Source of the DNA: Alphaproteobacteria bacterium
GTDB lineage: Bacteria; Pseudomonadota; Alphaproteobacteria; Micropepsales; Micropepsaceae
Direction: 5' to 3'
Assembly (NCBI GenBank): GCA_947473475.1
Contig: CANJBZ010000032.1
Span: 1 to 43,444 of the forward strand
DNA length: 43,444 bases
The notes under the pieces were generated by a model. It was given only the letters and a program-made list of their open reading frames with translations, had not been told where the DNA came from and made no database searches. Shown here piece by piece: positions 20,801 through 36,744 of this stretch. Position numbers and translations under genes: made by a program. How positions within the stretch are numbered: position 1 is the first letter of the stretch; the number at the start of each line of letters is the position of its first letter.

Positions 20801-20829
20801 TTGACAATCATTCGCATCTAGGAGATATA
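20801..20829 (+). promoter_or_regulatory. Promoter of bfd-bfr with iron-box-like operator
   Basis: TTGACA (20801-20806) and GATATA (20824-20829) are separated by 17 bases, ideal for a housekeeping sigma factor. The 15 bases 20802-20816 (TGACAATCATTCGCA) match the 7-1-7 Fur consensus at 11 of 14 informative positions and overlap the -35 box. Iron-dependent control would make sense for bacterioferritin genes. Whether Fur, Irr or another regulator binds is inference. Confidence 0.6.
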
Positions 20830-20857: not shown

Positions 20858-21046
20858 ATGATCGTTTGCGTCTGCAATAGGCTGAGTGAAGCGAAGATTC
20901 GGCACGCGATTTCGTCCGGCGCCGAATCGCCCGAACAAGTCTATGCCCATAGCGGGTGCCGAAAGGTCTGCGGAACATGTCAGGAAACGATAACAACAAT
21001 GCTCCAGGAGCAGGCGGAAGCGGAAATGCTCCAGGCGGCGGAATAG
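20858..21046 (+). CDS. bfd: Bacterioferritin-associated ferredoxin
   Basis: The protein has 62 residues, the normal Bfd length. The [2Fe-2S] ligands are visible as Cys4 and Cys6 (MIVCVC) and Cys38 and Cys41 (RKVCGTCQE); an extra Cys34 is present. Bfd passes electrons to bacterioferritin to reduce and release stored iron. ATG 20858 is preferred over TTG 20855 because it gives the canonical MIVCVCN start. Its last 70 bases, from codon 40 onward, overlap the start of bfr in another frame. Confidence 0.9.
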   Translation: MIVCVCNRLSEAKIRHAISSGAESPEQVYAHSGCRKVCGTCQETITTMLQEQAEAEMLQAAE

Positions 21047-21570
21047 GTAAGCCCGGTGCTTCGGCCCTCCGCAACGATCCCAAAACGATCGAACATCTGA
21101 ACCGCATCCTCAAGAACGAACTGACGGCCATCAATCAGTACTTCCTGCATTCGCGCATCCTCGCGAGCTGGGGCGTCTCGGAACTTTCCAAAAAGGAATA
21201 TGAAGAGTCGATCGACGAGATGAAGCACGCCGATTCGCTGACCCAGCGGATCCTGTTCCTGGGCGGGCTCCCCAATCTGCAATATCTCGACAAGCTGCTG
21301 ATCGGCGAGACAGTCGAGGAAATTATCTCCTGCGACCTGACCTTCGAATACAAGGCGCTGGCCGATTTGCGAGAAGCCATCGCCTATGCCGAATCGATCC
21401 AGGATTTCGGCACCCGCGCGCTCTATGTGAGCATCCTGAAGAGCGAAGAAGACCACATCGATTACCTGCAGACGCAGCTTCGGCTGATCGGAACGATTGG
21501 GCTGGCCGATTACATTCAGGTCCAGACCCAGCCAAACGCGGCCTATGCCCTCGCCCCGCCGGGCGATTGA
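20977..21570 (+). CDS. bfr: Bacterioferritin with N-terminal low-complexity extension
   Basis: The protein has 197 residues. The bacterioferritin fold begins around residue 33 (RNDPKTIEHLNRILKNELTAINQYF), where usual family members begin. Ferroxidase and haem residues are present: Glu in NELTAINQ, the DEMKHAD segment with the haem-ligand Met, and EEDHIDYL. Residues 1-30 are a Gly/Asn/Pro-rich tail (SGNDNNNAPGAGGSGNAPGG) mostly encoded inside the bfd 3' end. No ATG, GTG or TTG lies in frame between 20977 and the fold, so the extension is probably real. AAAGG lies about 10 bases upstream of ATG 20977. It stores iron as a 24-mer with haem. Confidence 0.9.
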   Translation: MSGNDNNNAPGAGGSGNAPGGGIGKPGASALRNDPKTIEHLNRILKNELTAINQYFLHSRILASWGVSELSKKEYEESIDEMKHADSLTQRILFLGGLPNLQYLDKLLIGETVEEIISCDLTFEYKALADLREAIAYAESIQDFGTRALYVSILKSEEDHIDYLQTQLRLIGTIGLADYIQVQTQPNAAYALAPPGD

Positions 21571-21576
21571 CGCAGC

Positions 21577-22980
21577 CTACTGGGCGCCGATGTGATCGGC
21601 GAGTTCGTTGGCCTTAACGAATCCCGTCGAGCTTTTCGGATCGATCGGCAGCATGCTCGCGTTCCAGGCGCTCCATTCCGCGGCCAGCCGGTCATAGATA
21701 TCCTTGCGCCGCTCCTTCAGGTTGCCCCGTTCCATCGGATCGTCGGCGACGTTGAACAGGAACGTGTTGTCGCGAATCTTCAGATATTTGAAATCGCCGT
21801 CGCGCATCGCGGCCTGGGCATTGGCCTTGTAGCGCCAGAACAGTTTGCGTGGGACGGGCGCCCTGCCCTCCGCCAGAAACGGGAGCAGGTTCATGCCGTC
21901 TGGCCGGAATGCCGGATCGGGCTGCGTGCCGGCCGCGGCGAGCAATGTCGGTAGCCAATCCATGCTGATGGCCACCTGATCGGAGGTCCGGCCTTCGGGA
22001 ATGTGGCCGGGCCAGGACATGATCGTTGGGATTCGCAGGCCGCCTTCGAGCAGTTCTGTTTTGCGTCCGGTAAACGGCCAAGTGTCCGCAAAGCGTTCGC
22101 CGCCATTGTCGCTGGTAAAGATAACGATGGTGTTCCCGCGCAATCCATTGGCGGTGAGCGCCTCAAGAACGCGGCCGACCTGAATATCCATCGCCTGGAT
22201 CATACGCTGATAATTGCGCTGCGTGCCGCCGTCGTAATGCTGCAACGCGCGGGTGCGCAGCCGTTCGGATTCGGCCTCGTCCTCGGTGGTCTCCCAGGGC
22301 CAATGCGGCGCATTGAAATGCAGACTTAGAAAGAACGGCTGACGTGCCCGCGCATAACCATTGATGACGTCGACGGCATGCTGTCCGAACAGTTCCGTCG
22401 TGTATCCGGTCTGCCGAATGGCTTCGTCGTTGTTCCAGAAGTCATCCTTATGATCCGTACCCTGATGGTTGAAATAATCTATAGCGCCGCCGCGAAATCC
22501 GTAAAAGTGGTCGTATCCACTTTTTAGCGGGCCGAAATTCGGCAGCGTGCCAAGGTGCCACTTGCCGATCAGCGTCGTGCCGTAACCGGCTTTCTTGAGC
22601 AGCGAGGGCAGTGTCGGATGGTCCGGCGGCAGACCAATCTCCGGCTGCCCCGTGGGCAAGGGTTCTTCCAGGCCGATACGAAGACGATATTGGTAGCGGC
22701 CCGTGATGAGGCCCGTGCGCGTCGCCGAACAAACCGCGGAATTGGCGTAACCCTGAAGCAAGCGCACGCCGCGCGCCGCGATACTGTCGATATTCGGCGT
22801 CTGCAGGTCGGGCCGGCCGTAACAGGACACGTCCGCGTACCCCATATCGTCCGCCATAATGAAGACGATGTTGGGTTTTGCCTGTTGTGCCAGAGCACCC
22901 GCGCTGCCTCCGCTTAGGATGACGGAACCAGCAGCCCCCTTCAGCAGCGTGCGGCGATTTAGCCTGTGCGTCTTAGCCAT
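21577..22980 (-). CDS. Tat-exported sulfatase (type I, formylglycine-dependent)
   Basis: The protein has 467 residues. A twin-arginine signal (LNRRTLLKGAAG) ends near GALAQQA. The metal-binding start NIVFIMADDMGYADVSCYG and the catalytic CSATRTGLITG (Cys84, Arg88) identify an alkaline-phosphatase-superfamily sulfatase. The Cys should be converted to formylglycine. Further ligands appear as GKWHLG and FTSDNGGERF. The second position after Cys that is often Pro is Ala/Thr here (CSATR), which also occurs in the family. The ribosome site is GGGGGAG. It begins 33 bases after lpd in the same direction, so read-through from the pyruvate dehydrogenase operon is possible. The substrate is unknown. Confidence 0.9.
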   Translation of the reverse strand: MAKTHRLNRRTLLKGAAGSVILSGGSAGALAQQAKPNIVFIMADDMGYADVSCYGRPDLQTPNIDSIAARGVRLLQGYANSAVCSATRTGLITGRYQYRLRIGLEEPLPTGQPEIGLPPDHPTLPSLLKKAGYGTTLIGKWHLGTLPNFGPLKSGYDHFYGFRGGAIDYFNHQGTDHKDDFWNNDEAIRQTGYTTELFGQHAVDVINGYARARQPFFLSLHFNAPHWPWETTEDEAESERLRTRALQHYDGGTQRNYQRMIQAMDIQVGRVLEALTANGLRGNTIVIFTSDNGGERFADTWPFTGRKTELLEGGLRIPTIMSWPGHIPEGRTSDQVAISMDWLPTLLAAAGTQPDPAFRPDGMNLLPFLAEGRAPVPRKLFWRYKANAQAAMRDGDFKYLKIRDNTFLFNVADDPMERGNLKERRKDIYDRLAAEWSAWNASMLPIDPKSSTGFVKANELADHIGAQ

Positions 22981-23013: not shown

Positions 23014-24411
23014 TCAAATATGCAGCGGGCGTCCGTCGGCGGCGAGAACGGCTTCGTGCATCATCTCCGACAATGTGGGATGCGGGAAGATCACCGTCTG
23101 CAGATCGGCATCGGTGCCTTCCAGCGTCCGCGCGATGCCATAACCCTGGATCAGCTCGGTGACTTCCGCACCGATCATATGCGCGCCCAAAAGCTCACCC
23201 GTATCGGCGTCGAACACCGTCTTGATGAAGCCTTCGACTTCGCCGAGCGCGATGGCCTTGCCGTTGCCGATGAAGGGAAATTTGCCAACCTTGATCTTGC
23301 GGCCGGTTTCGCGCGCTTTGGCTTCCGTCATGCCGACGGATGCGACCTGCGGCCAGCAATAGGTGCATCCCGGTATTTTCGAGGTGTCGAGCGGGTGAAC
23401 GCCTTTTACCCCGCCAATGCGCTCGGCGACGATGACGCCTTCGTGCATCGCCTTGTGCGCCAACCAGGGCGGGCCGGTCAGATCGCCGATAGCGTAGACG
23501 CCGGGCACGCCCGTTTCACACCATTGGTTGACGACGACGTGCGTCTTCTCAACTTTGATGCCCGCCTGTTCGAGCCCGATATTTTCGACATTGCCGACAA
23601 TACCGACCGCCAGGACGACACGGTCGACGGTGATCGTCTCGACCTTCCCGTCCTTGGCTTTCAACGTCGCGGTGACGTTGCTGGCGCCCTTCTGCAGCTT
23701 CTCGACAGTGGTAGCCGTCTTGATGACCATGCCCTGCTTCTGAAACGCTTTCTGTGCCGCGGCGGAAATCTCCGCATCTTCCACCGGCAGCACGCGGTCC
23801 AGAACTTCAACGACGGTTACGTCCGCGCCAAGCGTGCGATAGAAGCTGGCGAATTCGATGCCGATGGCGCCCGAACCGACGACCAGCAAGGATTTCGGAA
23901 ATTCCTTCGGCACCATGGCGTGCCGGTAGGTCCAGATCAGATTGCCATCGGCTTCGAGGCCCCGAAATTCGCGCGCGCGAGCACCAGTCGCCAGCACGAT
24001 GTTTTTCGCTGAATATTCCGTGGTCTGACCGTTCTTGACGACCGAGATCGTGCCTTTGCCCTTCAGCTTGGCCTCGCCGTCGATGACCGCGACCTTATGC
24101 TTCTTCATCAGGCCTTTGACGCCGTTCGAAAGCTGCGCGGCAACTTTGCGCGAACGCTCGACGATTTTCGTCAGGTCGAATTTGATGTTGTCGGCCGAGA
24201 AACCGAACTCGTCCAGCCGGTGCATCAGATGCCATATTTCCGAGGACCGCAGCAGCGCCTTGGTCGGAATGCAGCCCCAATTCAGGCAAATGCCGCCGAG
24301 ATTTTCACGCTCCACAACGGCGGTTTTCAACCCGAGCTGTCCGCAGCGGATGGCGCAGACATAACCGCCCGGCCCGCCGCCAACCACGATAACGTCAAAC
24401 GATTCAGCCAT
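23014..24411 (-). CDS. lpdA: Dihydrolipoyl dehydrogenase (E3 of pyruvate dehydrogenase)
   Basis: The protein has 465 residues and reoxidises dihydrolipoamide with NAD+ through FAD (EC 1.8.1.4). The FAD-binding VVVGGGPGGYVCA, the redox pair GGICLNWGC (Cys42, Cys47), an NAD-binding GSGAIGIEFASF and the C-terminal active-site base HPHPTLSE are all visible. It is the fourth gene after pdhA, pdhB and pdhC. A short palindromic repeat fills the 74 bases between it and pdhC. It may also serve other 2-oxoacid dehydrogenases. Confidence 0.95.
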   Translation of the reverse strand: MAESFDVIVVGGGPGGYVCAIRCGQLGLKTAVVERENLGGICLNWGCIPTKALLRSSEIWHLMHRLDEFGFSADNIKFDLTKIVERSRKVAAQLSNGVKGLMKKHKVAVIDGEAKLKGKGTISVVKNGQTTEYSAKNIVLATGARAREFRGLEADGNLIWTYRHAMVPKEFPKSLLVVGSGAIGIEFASFYRTLGADVTVVEVLDRVLPVEDAEISAAAQKAFQKQGMVIKTATTVEKLQKGASNVTATLKAKDGKVETITVDRVVLAVGIVGNVENIGLEQAGIKVEKTHVVVNQWCETGVPGVYAIGDLTGPPWLAHKAMHEGVIVAERIGGVKGVHPLDTSKIPGCTYCWPQVASVGMTEAKARETGRKIKVGKFPFIGNGKAIALGEVEGFIKTVFDADTGELLGAHMIGAEVTELIQGYGIARTLEGTDADLQTVIFPHPTLSEMMHEAVLAADGRPLHI

Positions 24412-24420
24412 GGATAAGAA

Positions 24421-24478
24421 TTCCCCTCCCCGAACCCGGCTACGCCGGGGTTCGACCCTCCCTCAAGTGGAGGGTGGG
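24421..24478. repeat. Short palindromic repeat between pdhC and lpd
   Basis: Two hairpins: CGAACCCGGC / GCCGGGGTTCG (about 24432-24455, one bulge) and CCCTCC / GGAGGG around CTCAAGT (about 24457-24474). Related in style (CCCTCC, GGGG) to the C/T-rich repeats elsewhere but with a different core. It lies inside the operon, where it could influence relative expression. Confidence 0.6.
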
Positions 24479-24485
24479 CTTAATA

Positions 24486-25859
24486 TTACAACAGCATCGA
24501 GGCTGGTTCCTCGATGAAGACTTTCAATGTTTGAAGGAAGCGCGCGCCGGTTGCGCCGTCGATGACGCGGTGATCGCACGACATGGTCAGCGTCATGACC
24601 GTGGCGGCCACGATCTTGCCGTCGCGAACAACCGCGCGTTCTTCACCCGCCCCGACCGCAAGAATGGCGCTCTGCGGCGGGTTGATCAGCGCCGTGAACT
24701 GGCGAATGCCGAACATGCCGAGATTGGAAATCGAAAAACCGCCGCCTTCAAACTCGAACGGCTTCAGCTTCTTTGCTTTGGCGCGTTCGGCTAACGATTT
24801 CGTCTCGTTAGAGATTTCTAACAGGCCTTTGGTTTCCGCCTTAAACACGAGCGGCGTAATCAGTCCCGGGTTGAGATCGACGGCGATCCCAATGTCAGCG
24901 TGCTTGTGATGCAGGATCGCCGCGTCGGTCCAACTGGCATTCACATCCGTATGCTTCATCAGCGCCATGGCCGAGGCTTTGATGACAAAGTCGTTGACGG
25001 ACAGTTTGTAAGCGCCCTCGCCTTTCAGCGATTTTTCGTTCAGCCGTGCGCGCAGAGACATCAATGCGCCGATGTCGCAATCGATGGTCAGATAGTAATG
25101 CGGGATGAGCGTCTTGGCCGAAGCGAGCCGGCGCGCGATGGTCTTGCGCATCGAGTCGTTCGGCACCGCGTCGTATTCGCCTTCCCTGAAAAACAGACGC
25201 GCATCCGGAAGCGGCATGATCCCCGACAATGTCGCCGGTGCTTCTGCAGCAGGGCGCGGGACTTGTTGCGCGGCGGGTGTCGCGGCTTTCGCAGGCGCTT
25301 TTTGTACACTGCCCTTGGCAGCCGCTTCGACATCGGACTTTACAATGCGCCCGCGCGGGCCAGAGCCGTGCAGATTGCCAATATCGATACCGGATTGCTG
25401 CGCAATGCACCGGGCAAGCGGTGACGCAAACACCCGATTTTCCGTATGCGGATCAGCGCCGTTGGCTTTCTGCACCTCTCCTTTAGGAGGCGTGGAAGCC
25501 GCCTTCGGCGCTTCGGGGAGGGGAGCCTTTAGCGCAGGCGCCGCCACTGCCGGAACGATGGCATCGCGGATCGCCTGCATGGTCGAGGAAATATCCTTCG
25601 GCGCGGGCGCGCTGTCCCCTTCCATTTCCAAAACGGCGATGGGCTGATTGACCTTCACGCCTTCCGCGCCTTCCGGCACGAGGATCTTCCCGATGCGGCC
25701 CTCATCGATGGACTCGAATTCCATCGTCGCCTTGTCGGTTTCGATCTCGGCCAGAACGTCGCCGGCCTTCACGGTATCGCCTTCTTTGACGTGCCATTTG
25801 GCTAGCTTGCCCTCTTCCATCGTGGGCGAGAGAGCCGGCATAAGAATCTGAGTGCTCAT
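24486..25859 (-). CDS. pdhC: Pyruvate dehydrogenase E2, dihydrolipoamide acetyltransferase
   Basis: The protein has 457 residues. One N-terminal lipoyl domain carries the lipoylated lysine at position 43 ([12 protein letters not shown]). After an Ala/Pro-rich linker comes the peripheral-subunit-binding domain ([20 protein letters not shown]), a second linker and the catalytic domain ending in [20 protein letters not shown], with the HxxxDG active-site motif. It transfers acetyl groups to CoA (EC 2.3.1.12) and forms the complex core. Start at 25859 with AAGGGGAG upstream. Confidence 0.95.
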
Positions 25860-25869
25860 TTTCTCCCCT

Positions 25870-25965
25870 TAACTGTCATGCCCCGCAAACGCGAGCCATC
25901 CAGGTGGGCGTAGGATTCGTCGCGCGCATAGAGACGATACAAGGGTGACTGCAGTGCCCCAGCGC
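25870..25965 (-). repeat. Probable dispersed repeat between pdhB and pdhC
   Basis: The 117-base gap between pdhB and pdhC is large for this operon. On the minus strand it contains CACCTGGATGGCTCGCGTTT and GCGGGGCATGACAG. The translated pattern YAHLDGSRLRGMTV is one I have seen in spurious short ORFs of alphaproteobacterial genomes. I take it as a decayed dispersed palindromic repeat; this rests on memory, not on a second copy in the window. Confidence 0.4.
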
Positions 25966-25976
25966 CCGCCATAAGA

Positions 25977-27338
25977 CTAATTCCGGTAGAGCGCAGATTT
26001 CGCCGCCGCCACGATTTCATCGACCGTAGGCAACGCCAAGCGTTCGAGGTTGGCGGCGTAGGGCATCGGTACGTCCTTGCCGGTAATGCGTAGCGGCGGC
26101 GCGTCCAGATAATCGAACGCCTGATCCACGACCACGGCGGCAATCTCCGCGCCGATGGAACACACCGGCCAGCCCTGCTCGACGGTGACAATGCGGTTGG
26201 TCTTCTTGACCGACTCCACAACCGTATCCGTATCGAGCGGACGCAATGTCCGCAGATCGATCAATTCCGCTTCGATGCCTTCCTTCGCCAGCACATCGGC
26301 CGCTTCCATGATGAGTCCCACCGAAATGGAATGCGCCACCAAGGTAATGTGCGAGCCCTGACGGATCACACGCGCCTTGCCGATCGGCAAAACGAAATCG
26401 TCCATCTTCGGTACGGGGAACGAGCGCCCATACACGATTTCGTTTTCCAGGAACACGACAGGGTTCGGATCGCGAATGGCCGCCTTCAGAAGCCCTTTCG
26501 CGTCGGCTGCAAAGTAAGGCGAAATCACTTTCAGGCCCGGAATCTGCGCATACCACGCGGAAAAATCCTGGCTGTGCTGCGCGGCGACGCGCGCGGCCGG
26601 ACCGTTGGGCCCGCGGAAGACGATCGGACAACCCATCTGGCCGCCCGACATATAGAGCGTCTTAGCCGCGGAATTGACGATCTGGTCCATCGCCTGCATG
26701 GCGAAATTGAACGTCATGAATTCTATGATCGGCTTCAAACCGCCGAACGCCGCGCCGACGCCAAGCCCCGCGAAACCCTGCTCCGTGATCGGCGTATCGA
26801 TCACGCGCCGCTCGCCGAACTCTTCCAAAAGGCCCTGGCTGATTTTGTAGGCGCCCTGATATTGGGCGACTTCCTCACCCATCAGAAAAACGGTGTCGTC
26901 GCGGCGCATCTCTTCAGCCATGGCATCGCGCAAAGCATCGCGCACCGTCATGGTGACCATTTCCACGCCTTCTGGAATTTCCAGCCCCGCCGCGTGGCCG
27001 TTACTTTTCGGCGCTACCGGGAGCGGAGCTTTCGCAGCAGGTGTTTCAACTTTTATCGCCACAGCAGCCGCGCGTGCCGGCGGCGCATCGGAGACTTCGC
27101 CTTCCTGTGTTAATTCCGCGATGGGCTCGTTGACTTTCACGCCTTCGGCGCCCTCCGGCACCAGGATTTTCGCAATCCGCCCTTCATCGACGGCTTCGAA
27201 TTCCATCGTGGCCTTATCGGTCTCGATTTCCGCCAGGATGTCGCCGGCTTTAACGGCATCGCCTTCTTTGACGTGCCACTTGGCGAGTTTGCCCTCCTCC
27301 ATTGTCGGAGAGAGCGCGGGCATCAATATCTGGGTCAT
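25977..27338 (-). CDS. pdhB: Pyruvate dehydrogenase E1 beta subunit with lipoyl domain
   Basis: The protein has 453 residues, longer than a plain E1 beta of about 330, because it begins with its own lipoyl domain (lysine 42 in [13 protein letters not shown]). A linker ([14 protein letters not shown]) joins this to the transketolase-like body ([40 protein letters not shown]). This arrangement is typical of alphaproteobacterial pyruvate dehydrogenase. The start overlaps the pdhA stop by one base (TAATG), implying translational coupling. With E1 alpha it decarboxylates pyruvate on thiamine diphosphate (EC 1.2.4.1). Confidence 0.95.
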
Positions 27339-28372
27339 TATTTCAGAACGTCCGTATACAGCTCGTCCGGCCCTGGCTCGGGCGATTCCGTCGCAAATTC
27401 GGCGGCGCGGTTGATGATCTGGCGAACATCGCGGTCGAACGCCTTAAGGTCTTCTTCGCGCACGATGCCATCGCGCACCAGCCGCACACCAACCGTATCG
27501 ATGGGATCGTGCTGCTCGCGCATTTGCTGCACCTCTTCACGGGTGCGGTATTTGGCGGGATCCGACATGGAATGACCGCGATAGCGATAGGTCTTCATCT
27601 CAAGGATGTAAGGACCGTTGCCGGAACGCGCCCACTCGACCGCTTTACGCCCCGCCGCGTAGACCGCTTCCACATCCATGCCATCGACGGCTTCGCCTGG
27701 GATGTTGTGCGCGGCGCCGCGCTTGTACATGTGGACCTCGGACGTGGACCGTTTGACCGCGGTGCCCATGGCGTACTGGTTATTTTCGATAATGTAGATG
27801 CAGGGCAGCTTCCACAGCTCAGCCATGTTGAAGGATTCGAACACCTGGCCCTGATTTGAGGCGCCATCGCCGAAATAGGTCAGGCAGACCGCGCCGTTGT
27901 TTTTATAGCGGTTGGCGAAGGCGAGGCCCGTTCCGATGGGAACATTGGCGCCGACGATGCCGTGCCCGCCGAAGAAGTTCTTCTCCTTGCTGAACATGTG
28001 CATGGAGCCGCCCTTGCCGCGGGAATAACCCGAGGCCCGGCCCGTCAGTTCGGCCATCACGCCGCCGGGATCCATCCCGCACGCCAGCATGTGGCCGTGA
28101 TCGCGATAGGTGGTGATGACCTGGTCTTCCGGTTTCAGCGCCGCCTGCATGCCGACCACAACGGCTTCCTGGCCGATGTAGAGATGGCAGAAGCCACCGA
28201 TCAGACCCATGCCGTAGAGCTGGCCCGCCTTCTCCTCGAAGCGGCGGATCAGCAGCATATCCCGGTAGAATGCTTTCAGGCGTGCGGCAGCAGCGGGGTC
28301 CTGATTGGTCCCGTTCGCCGGCCGGTGCTCTACATCATTCTCGGCGGCTGCCGCCGCTTCCGCACGCGCCAT
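27338..28372 (-). CDS. pdhA: Pyruvate dehydrogenase E1 alpha subunit
   Basis: The protein has 344 residues. The thiamine-diphosphate motif is visible as [10 protein letters not shown] followed by ENNQYAMG. The phosphorylation-loop-like [15 protein letters not shown] and the E1-alpha opening [20 protein letters not shown] fit the family. It is the first gene of pdhA-pdhB-pdhC-lpd. The 109 bases upstream to ftsB must hold the promoter, but no strong consensus is evident. The N-terminal 25 residues are an Ala-rich, poorly conserved extension. Confidence 0.95.
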
Positions 28373-31188: not shown

Positions 31189-32493
<1,305 letters not shown>

Positions 32494-35017: not shown

Positions 35018-36646
35018 CTAAACCAGACGGCTTTGCTGAACGGCCGCGCCGACAAAGGACGCGAACAGCGGGTGCGGATCGAGGGGCTTGGACTTCAGCT
35101 CAGGATGAAACTGCACGCCGATGAACCAGGGGTGATCGGTGATTTCCACGATTTCCGGCAGAATGCCGTCGGGCGAAAGGCCGGAAAACACCAATCCGTG
35201 CTCTTCCAATTGCCGCTGGTATTCGATGTTGACCTCGTACCGGTGACGGTGCCGTTCGCTGATGGTGGTCGTGCCATAAATTTCGGCGACCCGGCTTCCT
35301 GGGCGGAGCGTCGCGTCATAGGCGCCCAGGCGCATGGTGCCGCCCAAATCGGTGTCTGAGTTACGCCGTTCGACGTCGTTGCCTTTGGTCCATTCGGTCA
35401 TCAGCGCGATGACGGGATGGCGCGGCTGGCCGAATTCCGTCGAACCGGCCCCCGTCAATCCTGCGAGATTGCGCGCGGTTTCGATGACCGCCATCTGCAT
35501 GCCGAAGCAGATGCCGAAGAAGGGCACGCCACGTTCGCGCGCGAATTTTACCGCTTCGATTTTGCCTTCGCTGCCGCGCTCACCGAAGCCGCCCGGAACG
35601 AGAATGCCGTTTCGATCTTCCAGATAAACGGCAGCGTCGCCCTTTTCGAAGACTTCCGATTCGATCCAATCGATATTGACCCGCACATTGTTGGCCAGCC
35701 CGCCGTGAATCAGCGCCTCGATCAACGATTTGTATGAATCTTTGACCTGCGTGTACTTGCCGACGACGGCGATCTTGACCTCGCCCTCGGGCTTCAGCGC
35801 ACGATCCACGACCGCACGCCAACGTGACAAATCGGGCTCCGGCGCATCCTTGATGCCGAAGACTTCCAGCACTTGCGTGTCGAAGCCTTCGTTGTGATAC
35901 GCGATCGGCGCGTTGTAGATCGTATTCAGATTCAGCGCGGGGATGACGCGCTCAGCACGCACGTTGCAGAACAGCGCGATCTTCCGCCGGTCGTCTGAGC
36001 TGATCTCCATATCCGAACGGCACAGCAGGATATCCGGCTGAATACCGATGCTGCGCAGTTCCTTGACCGAGTGCTGGGTCGGTTTGGTCTTCAGCTCGCC
36101 CGCGGAGGTAATATAGGGCACCAGCGTCAGGTGCACGAAGCAGGTGCGGTCGTGTCCGAGATCGTTCCCAAGCTGACGAATCGCCTCGAAGAACGGCAGT
36201 CCCTCAATGTCGCCGACCGTGCCGCCGATTTCGCAGAGCAGGAAATCGATGCCGTCCAGACCGGCAATGACGAATTCTTTGATCAGATCGGTGACATGGG
36301 GAATTACCTGAACGGTGCGGCCGAGATAAAGCCCCTGCCTCTCTCTGGAGAGGATGTTCTGATAAATCCGGCCCGCGGTGACATTGTCCGACCGCGATGA
36401 GGCGACGCCGGTAAACCGCTCATAATGACCGAGATCGAGATCGGTCTCTGCCCCGTCATCGGTGACGTAGACTTCGCCATGCTGATAGGGACTCATCGTC
36501 CCCGGATCGACGTTGAGATACGGATCGAGCTTGCGCAAACGCACGCTGTAGCCGCGCGCTTGCAAAAGCGCACCGAGTGCCGCGGAAGCCAAGCCTTTTC
36601 CCAGGGAAGAGACCACGCCGCCGGTGATGAAGATCAACCGCGCCAT
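35018..36646 (-). CDS. pyrG: CTP synthase
   Basis: The protein has 542 residues and makes CTP from UTP with glutamine and ATP (EC 6.3.4.2). The N-terminal synthase domain begins [20 protein letters not shown]. The C-terminal class I glutamine amidotransferase domain shows [14 protein letters not shown] with the nucleophilic Cys, and the His/Glu pair near [17 protein letters not shown] 36646 starts at the conserved N-terminus; the upstream ATG at 36658 adds four residues. It supplies CTP that the KDO pathway downstream of kdsA uses. Confidence 0.96.
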
Positions 36647-36744
36647 GGAAGCGCACAATGGCTCAAGGTCTCGCCTCGCTCAAGCGATATTCCTGCGCTG
36701 CTAACAGGTTCATGACAATTACAATGCTTGTTCTTATGCGCCAC

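Follow-up and report, generated by a model that had tools for sequence, protein, structure and literature searches.

The survey of 338 genomes that Palleja and co-workers published in 2008 reports, in the text of it that was accessible (PMC2478687), no real co-directional overlap longer than 60 nt, and the longest that it accepted is 56 nt. According to the same excerpt this longest real case is holD-rimI of the Enterobacteria (up to 56 nt), which like the bfd/bfr overlap described here is co-directional and conserved across species, whereas bfd/bfr spans 61–79 nt and lies above the 60-nt line of the survey. The rnpA-rpmH pair of Thermus is likewise a same-strand, out-of-frame overlap from which both proteins are made (PMC9841429, partial text). 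In that case, however, one gene is wholly contained within its partner and a single initiation site serves both starts, whereas bfr starts late in the upstream gene, within its cluster-ligand motif. Long real overlaps are already known; what is new at this locus is a conserved case above 60 nt with a start inside a cluster-ligand motif. Among titles and abstract openings, a search that covered few subscription papers, we recognised no report of a bfd-bfr overlap or of an N-terminal arm on a bacterioferritin.

With regard to the proteins themselves, the nearest comparison is BfrB-Bfd of P. aeruginosa, and BfrB is among the best PDB matches to the Bfr studied here. The Bfr core is 57–60% identical to its Pseudomonas counterpart over the fold. 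The solved BfrB chains, in contrast, begin at what is residue 31 of this Bfr and have no arm, and the P. aeruginosa Bfd contact residues Y2 and L5 (accessible text of PMC12261321) correspond in the clade defined below to Ile2 (37/37) and Val5 (36/37). Ordinary bfd-bfr pairs, as in Marinobacter, Pseudomonas, Aeromonas and other alphaproteobacteria, have the same gene order and the same families where a Bfd is found, but their bfr starts at the fold and mostly after the bfd stop.

The window, by which we mean the whole 43,444-nucleotide stretch of DNA that was analyzed, carries on its forward strand bfd, encoding a bacterioferritin-associated ferredoxin of 62 aa (20858–21046, ATG to TAG), and bfr, encoding a bacterioferritin of 197 aa with an N-terminal arm (20977–21570, ATG to TGA). 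The two genes share 70 nt (20977–21046, forward strand) comprising 23 full codons read in two frames. The codon preceding Bfd Cys4 (TGT, 20978–20980) ends in the A of the bfr ATG (20977–20979), and a Shine-Dalgarno-like GAAAGGT belonging to bfr is located within bfd codons at 20961–20967 of the same strand. Bfd scored 44.3 bits against Pfam PF04324 Fer2_BFD (cut-off 26) and retains all four cluster cysteines, arranged as C-x-C and C-x-x-C. Against the NCBIfam equivalog NF007803 (PRK10509) it reached 19.7 bits, below the cut-off of 75, and we thus refer to it as a Bfd-domain protein adjoining bfr and outside that equivalog. Bfr matched TIGR00754 with 206.5 bits (cut-off 125.55) over residues 32–184.

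In an AlphaFold2 model, residues 31–185 of Bfr superposed on 5zur_B with a Z of 26.3 and an rmsd of 0.9 over 155 residues. Because residue 31 of this predicted structure superposes on residue 1 of solved bacterioferritins, Bfr would carry a 30-residue arm ahead of the start used by its relatives. By structural alignment to solved Bfrs, the place of the ordinary start Met (residue 1) is taken by CTC (Leu31, 21067–21069), and the arm codons that are read only as Bfr, past the bfd stop and ahead of that place, occupy 21049–21066 (both forward strand). A scan in the bfr frame found no ATG, GTG or TTG in the window from 20977 to the fold; upstream of the ATG by 7 codons there is an in-frame GTG at 20956. 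The sequence-only reading of this DNA had proposed a 70-base overlap, the lack of any other bfr start codon before the conserved fold, and an extension of about 30 residues with 23 of them coded over the Bfd C-terminus. These proposals all stood, and the arrangement proved to be conserved.

In order to define how widely the junction occurs we examined 96 genomes of the family, of which 60 gave a match, in some cases to no more than a distantly related ferritin-like protein; a search of the order saw a single family. The genus of the window (4 genomes) and its sister genus (33) form the clade used throughout and contribute 37 intact junctions, the window included. In every one of the 37 the bfr ATG sits at −1 of the Bfd Cys4 codon (NNA TGY) in the identical frame. 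The overlap measures 67 nt in 17 loci, 70 in 9, 73 in 5, 61 in 4, and 64 and 79 in one each. Both frames are conserved across these species, as is expected of a real co-directional overlap. In 30 of the 37, the bfr frame runs from its ATG within bfd into the fold without a further start-type codon, indicating that translation begins inside bfd. The other 7 have one at the ordinary place (ATG in 4, GTG in 2 and TTG in 1), and a short form of Bfr is possible there. In 29/37 loci a TTG or GTG lies in frame 3 codons upstream of the ATG, and the true bfr start could precede the ATG; we favor the ATG because it is invariant and is kept by rare codons.

Two loci were left out of the junction counts, one (L122) at a contig edge and one (L141) whose bfr frame is interrupted by a string of Ns, with the ATG, Cys4 and arm nevertheless present; a junction identical to that of L003 (L031) was counted once. 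The sole true exception is L131 (G116), with ACG in place of the ATG, Arg in place of Cys4 and an upstream in-frame TTG that remains. Its bfr may start at that TTG or may be damaged, and the one-base change may be either an error of sequencing or, in what is a small genome, a genuine loss of both features.

The codon preceding Bfd Cys4 must end in A for the bfr ATG to exist, and it does so in 37/37 loci (CGA in 30, ACA in 3, CAA in 2, TCA and AGA in 1 each). Codon usage across these two genes (6,895 codons) predicts 2.3 of 37. The naive probability of such an outcome is ~10^-45, a value that overstates the case because the species are related, and for the same reason none of the clade counts given here are independent trials. 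Among 13 control Bfds without the overlap, A is present at that site in only one (L012). That locus was kept among the controls, and L023 was dropped from the codon and Shine-Dalgarno controls as the wrong ORF had been picked. Judged by this codon bias, the bfr start codon is under selection.

A similar picture was obtained for the ribosome-binding site. The duplex energies of the clade Shine-Dalgarno sequences range from −5.1 to −10.3 kcal/mol (−7.6 in the window), as calculated with a generic anti-Shine-Dalgarno, which was used because a pattern search of the assembly did not recover the 16S end. At the equivalent place the 13 control Bfds gave −0.9 to −4.1 kcal/mol. In 14 family loci with an ordinary bfr start the values were −4.0 to −10.0 kcal/mol, a strength range that includes the signals of the clade. 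Only 0.4–8.6% of random synonymous codings were as strong as those of the clade. The Arg upstream of the bfr ATG is mostly coded AGA or AGG in clade Bfds. The Shine-Dalgarno sequence thus appears to be under selection and to be written in unusual Bfd codons.

Synonymous divergence in bfd was compared before the signal, within it and in the overlap. The 68 close pairs gave 0.429, 0.074 and 0.292, respectively. Two more distant bins gave 0.589/0.403/0.457 and 0.647/0.503/0.591, and so the drop in the signal region weakens with distance. When the comparison was made on 9 independent, non-overlapping pairs the values were 0.377 before the signal, 0.179 in it and 0.219 in the overlap.

We then asked how the arm evolves. 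The stretch between the bfd stop and the ordinary start has a pN/pS of 0.15 in the Bfr frame (bootstrap 0.07–0.23), as measured on 12 independent pairs and 98 codons, all from the sister genus; the genus of the window has 4 divergent members, too few for this test. Of the differences, 52/66 fall at third positions, and the other two frames gave a pN/pS of 2.19 and 4.25. Including two further codons, from the ordinary start onward, raised the value to 0.24 (0.15–0.35). Since the constraint is observed in the Bfr frame only, this stretch appears to be translated as Bfr in the sister-genus species. Between the two genera the arm pN/pS is ~1.0 (126 most distant pairs) and the sequence is not conserved. 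A motif near the arm end, G-P-x-P-x-A-[SG], occurs in 32/33 sister-genus members; its G-P-x-P-x-A portion was found in 0/4 members of the window's genus. Arm length is 25–34 residues in all 37 loci, and the arm, with a pLDDT of 52–54, is predicted to be disordered. All clade arms contain Gly, and their net charge runs from −1 to +5. The tail had been described as Gly/Asn/Pro-rich; this holds for the arm of the window (net charge +1, two basic residues) but not for the clade, where the majority of arms are rich in Arg, Gly and Pro and have a mildly basic character.

The remainder of the protein is conserved. The ferroxidase residues E18, E51, H54, E94, E127 and H130 (P. aeruginosa numbering; residue list from the accessible text of PMC13136788) are identical in 37/37. 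The same is true of Met52 in that numbering. We take this residue to be the heme Met. Judged from these residues, the iron chemistry of Bfr looks ordinary. Within the Bfd-docking set of P. aeruginosa BfrB, as given in the excerpt of PMC12261321, L68, P69, N70, Q72, G80 and E81 are invariant in 37/37 while positions 78 and 79 vary. The conserved Bfr docking residues suggest that Bfd docking itself is probably intact.

Collectively these data make it very probable that bfd and bfr form a genuine conserved overlap in which bfr starts within bfd, is initiated on its own and yields a protein with a 25–34-residue arm that would form an outer flexible strand. The mechanism that we propose is as follows. 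Ribosomes would initiate bfr at the ATG made by the codon preceding Bfd Cys4, guided by the Shine-Dalgarno sequence placed in unusual Bfd codons. Because the clade does not preserve a start codon at the ordinary place by the fold, Bfr would be made with the arm. Ribosomes would bind this site of bfr's own on a shared bfd-bfr mRNA with no need for termination on bfd, such that both partners come from one mRNA and probably from one iron-responsive promoter. The arm would lie as a flexible strand outside the 24-mer near the Bfd-docking face, where it may tune the interactions of the shell and leave its iron chemistry unchanged.

Upstream of bfd we observed the element TTGACAATCATTCGCAT at 20801–20817 (forward strand). 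A TTGACAATCANTCGCAA-like 17-mer is present upstream of bfd in 37/37 clade loci with 0–4 mismatches, 23 of them with none, relative to a pattern that was drawn by eye from the same loci. The TTGACAATCATTCGCA-like element resembles a Fur box and overlaps a −35-like hexamer.

Where the ordinary bfr start is retained could be seen by comparison with other lineages. An ATG or GTG stands at the ordinary place in 13/13 loci from other genera of the family and in 24/24 loci from other families of the class, and outside the family one stands at or within three codons of it in 85/85 loci among the matches listed, with the caveat that the 85-locus and 24-locus sets may share genomes. The loci outside the family derive from a contig search across genomes, which returned at least 80 loci, and from a class search of 385 genomes drawn from a larger group, for which the 24 newly returned loci were read. 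Relatives in which bfr starts directly ahead of the fold and lacks an extension, which would have spoken against the earlier reading had they occurred within the clade, were found only outside it. In four control loci of the family (L022, L023, L026 and L142) the ordinary start is preceded by further in-frame ATGs.

The Bfrs that bear the arm group together in a single clade of 39 rows (support 100/97). Label changes on the tree number three rather than one because L131 and L122 sit in this clade unlabelled, and we infer a single origin of the arrangement. Likely the ordinary bfr start was lost and an upstream one used, and loss of a start codon followed by 5' extension is a described route to overlaps (accessible text of PMC3887535). 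As other genera of the family have another Bfr lineage, the arm-type pair may have come by acquisition in the ancestor of the two genera. Two further loci were observed in the course of this comparison. One genome of the window's own genus (G002) carries a different, ordinary bfd-bfr pair (L012) that groups with a Rhodospirillales sequence, either through horizontal transfer or through assembly contamination. In another genus of the family (G012, locus L028) an overlap arises by the opposite route, with a Bfd of 77 residues whose gene extends 34 nt beyond an ordinary start of bfr.

The described route of start loss and 5' extension is also what would be expected if the overlap arose neutrally, with the ordinary start lost by chance, the upstream ATG captured, and an arm without function for which selection merely keeps the frame open. 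The wide difference in arm sequence between the two genera agrees with such an origin. The near-universal sister-genus motif, the pN/pS of 0.15 and the steady arm length across the clade do not, and we regard a functionless arm as a serious possibility that is nonetheless somewhat disfavored. This is the strongest of the alternatives to our reading.

An overlap of two genes whose products work together raises the possibility that its chief role is to couple their translation, fixing the Bfd:Bfr ratio by opening of the bfr start or by re-initiation, with the arm a tolerated by-product. The two genes are adjacent on one strand behind one conserved upstream element, and according to the accessible part of PMC10666635, gene pairs whose stop and start are −8 to +10 nt apart more often encode members of the same complex. 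That same text, however, places termination-reinitiation within this range of about −8 to +10 nt. The bfd/bfr overlap of 61–79 nt lies outside it in 37/37 loci, and a ribosome that had finished bfd would need to move back by 60–80 nt. Moreover, the bfr start has its own Shine-Dalgarno sequence, and its start region is more open in the clade (mean fraction unpaired 0.53) than are coding controls (0.42, SD 0.11). The purifying selection on the sister-genus arm past the overlap further argues against an arm that is only tolerated. The window itself has a fairly paired start region (0.30 unpaired, the most paired of 37) that translating ribosomes could open. Considering both sides, we find a chiefly coupling role unlikely, and the earlier claim that the overlap couples the translation of the two proteins was not upheld. 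We separately considered a hairpin that would mask the bfr start before translation of bfd; as a clade-wide feature it was not supported, given the openness of the start region relative to the coding controls, while such a hairpin is possible in the window.

Returning to our preferred reading of independent initiation with an outer arm, the arm could also be a working part of iron release. In ferritins the subunit N-termini lie on the outside of the shell, and helix A begins close to the L68-bearing end of helix B. With this geometry, an effect of the arm on Bfd docking is possible. In its strongest form this proposal has 24 arms round the docking clefts that tune Bfd binding or link shells, together with a genetic lock between the partners, as one change at the shared C-x-x-C/ATG site would disable both the ferredoxin cluster and the ferritin start. 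L131 seems to be an example of such a change. We hold this full proposal only tentatively and consider it improbable as it stands. Two other roles for the arm were considered. Encapsulin targeting as a general role was set aside because the encapsulin family PF04454 is present in 4/96 family genomes (G063, G065, G072 and G079), only three of which (G063, G072 and G079) have an arm-bearing Bfr. For the window, a Dps-like DNA-binding arm was not supported, its net charge being +1 with two basic residues, although such a role is possible in relatives.

It could alternatively be argued that the ordinary place (residue 31) serves as the Bfr start with a non-standard codon and that the upstream frame is not translated. 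The residue there is Leu, Ile, Val or Met in 35/39 loci, with CTG in 7/39 and ATT, ATC or ATA in 8/39. This is contrasted by 17/39 loci, including the window, that have CTC, CTT, GTC, GTT, CCG, CGG, CGC or CAG there. In addition, of the three frames of the upstream codons only that of Bfr shows protein-like evolution in the sister genus, and the ATG and Shine-Dalgarno sequence in bfd are kept by rare codons, leaving a non-standard start very improbable. That a sequencing frameshift or a wrongly extended bfr 5' end created the overlap, errors to which the 2008 survey ascribed 715 co-directional overlaps longer than 60 nt (409 of them as extended downstream 5' ends; excerpt of PMC2478687), is hardly credible since the same junction recurs in 37 assemblies, including ones of 1–3 contigs (G062, G103, G104 and G105), with both frames conserved.

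At this junction selection would act simultaneously, on a single stretch of DNA, to maintain a ligand of a metal cluster, the start codon and ribosome-binding site of a gene, and segments of two proteins. The junction also provides a natural N-terminal arm on a bacterioferritin, the role of which in iron release is open to direct test. There is a consequence for annotation as well. Prodigal permits at most 60 nt of overlap between same-strand genes (PMC2848648, partial text), a rule under which the program would be expected either to omit bfd or to shorten bfr when such genomes are annotated.

With respect to the surroundings of the pair, a sulfatase-like ORF with a Tat-type signal sequence, named by eye, lies on the reverse strand at 21577–22980, convergent with bfr and six bases past its stop. 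It is followed by a pyruvate dehydrogenase complex cluster at 23014–28372, also on the reverse strand, in which Pfam matches identify E3, E2, a lipoyl-bearing E1 beta and E1 alpha. Enolase (31189–32463) and CTP synthase (35018–36658) are also encoded in the window.
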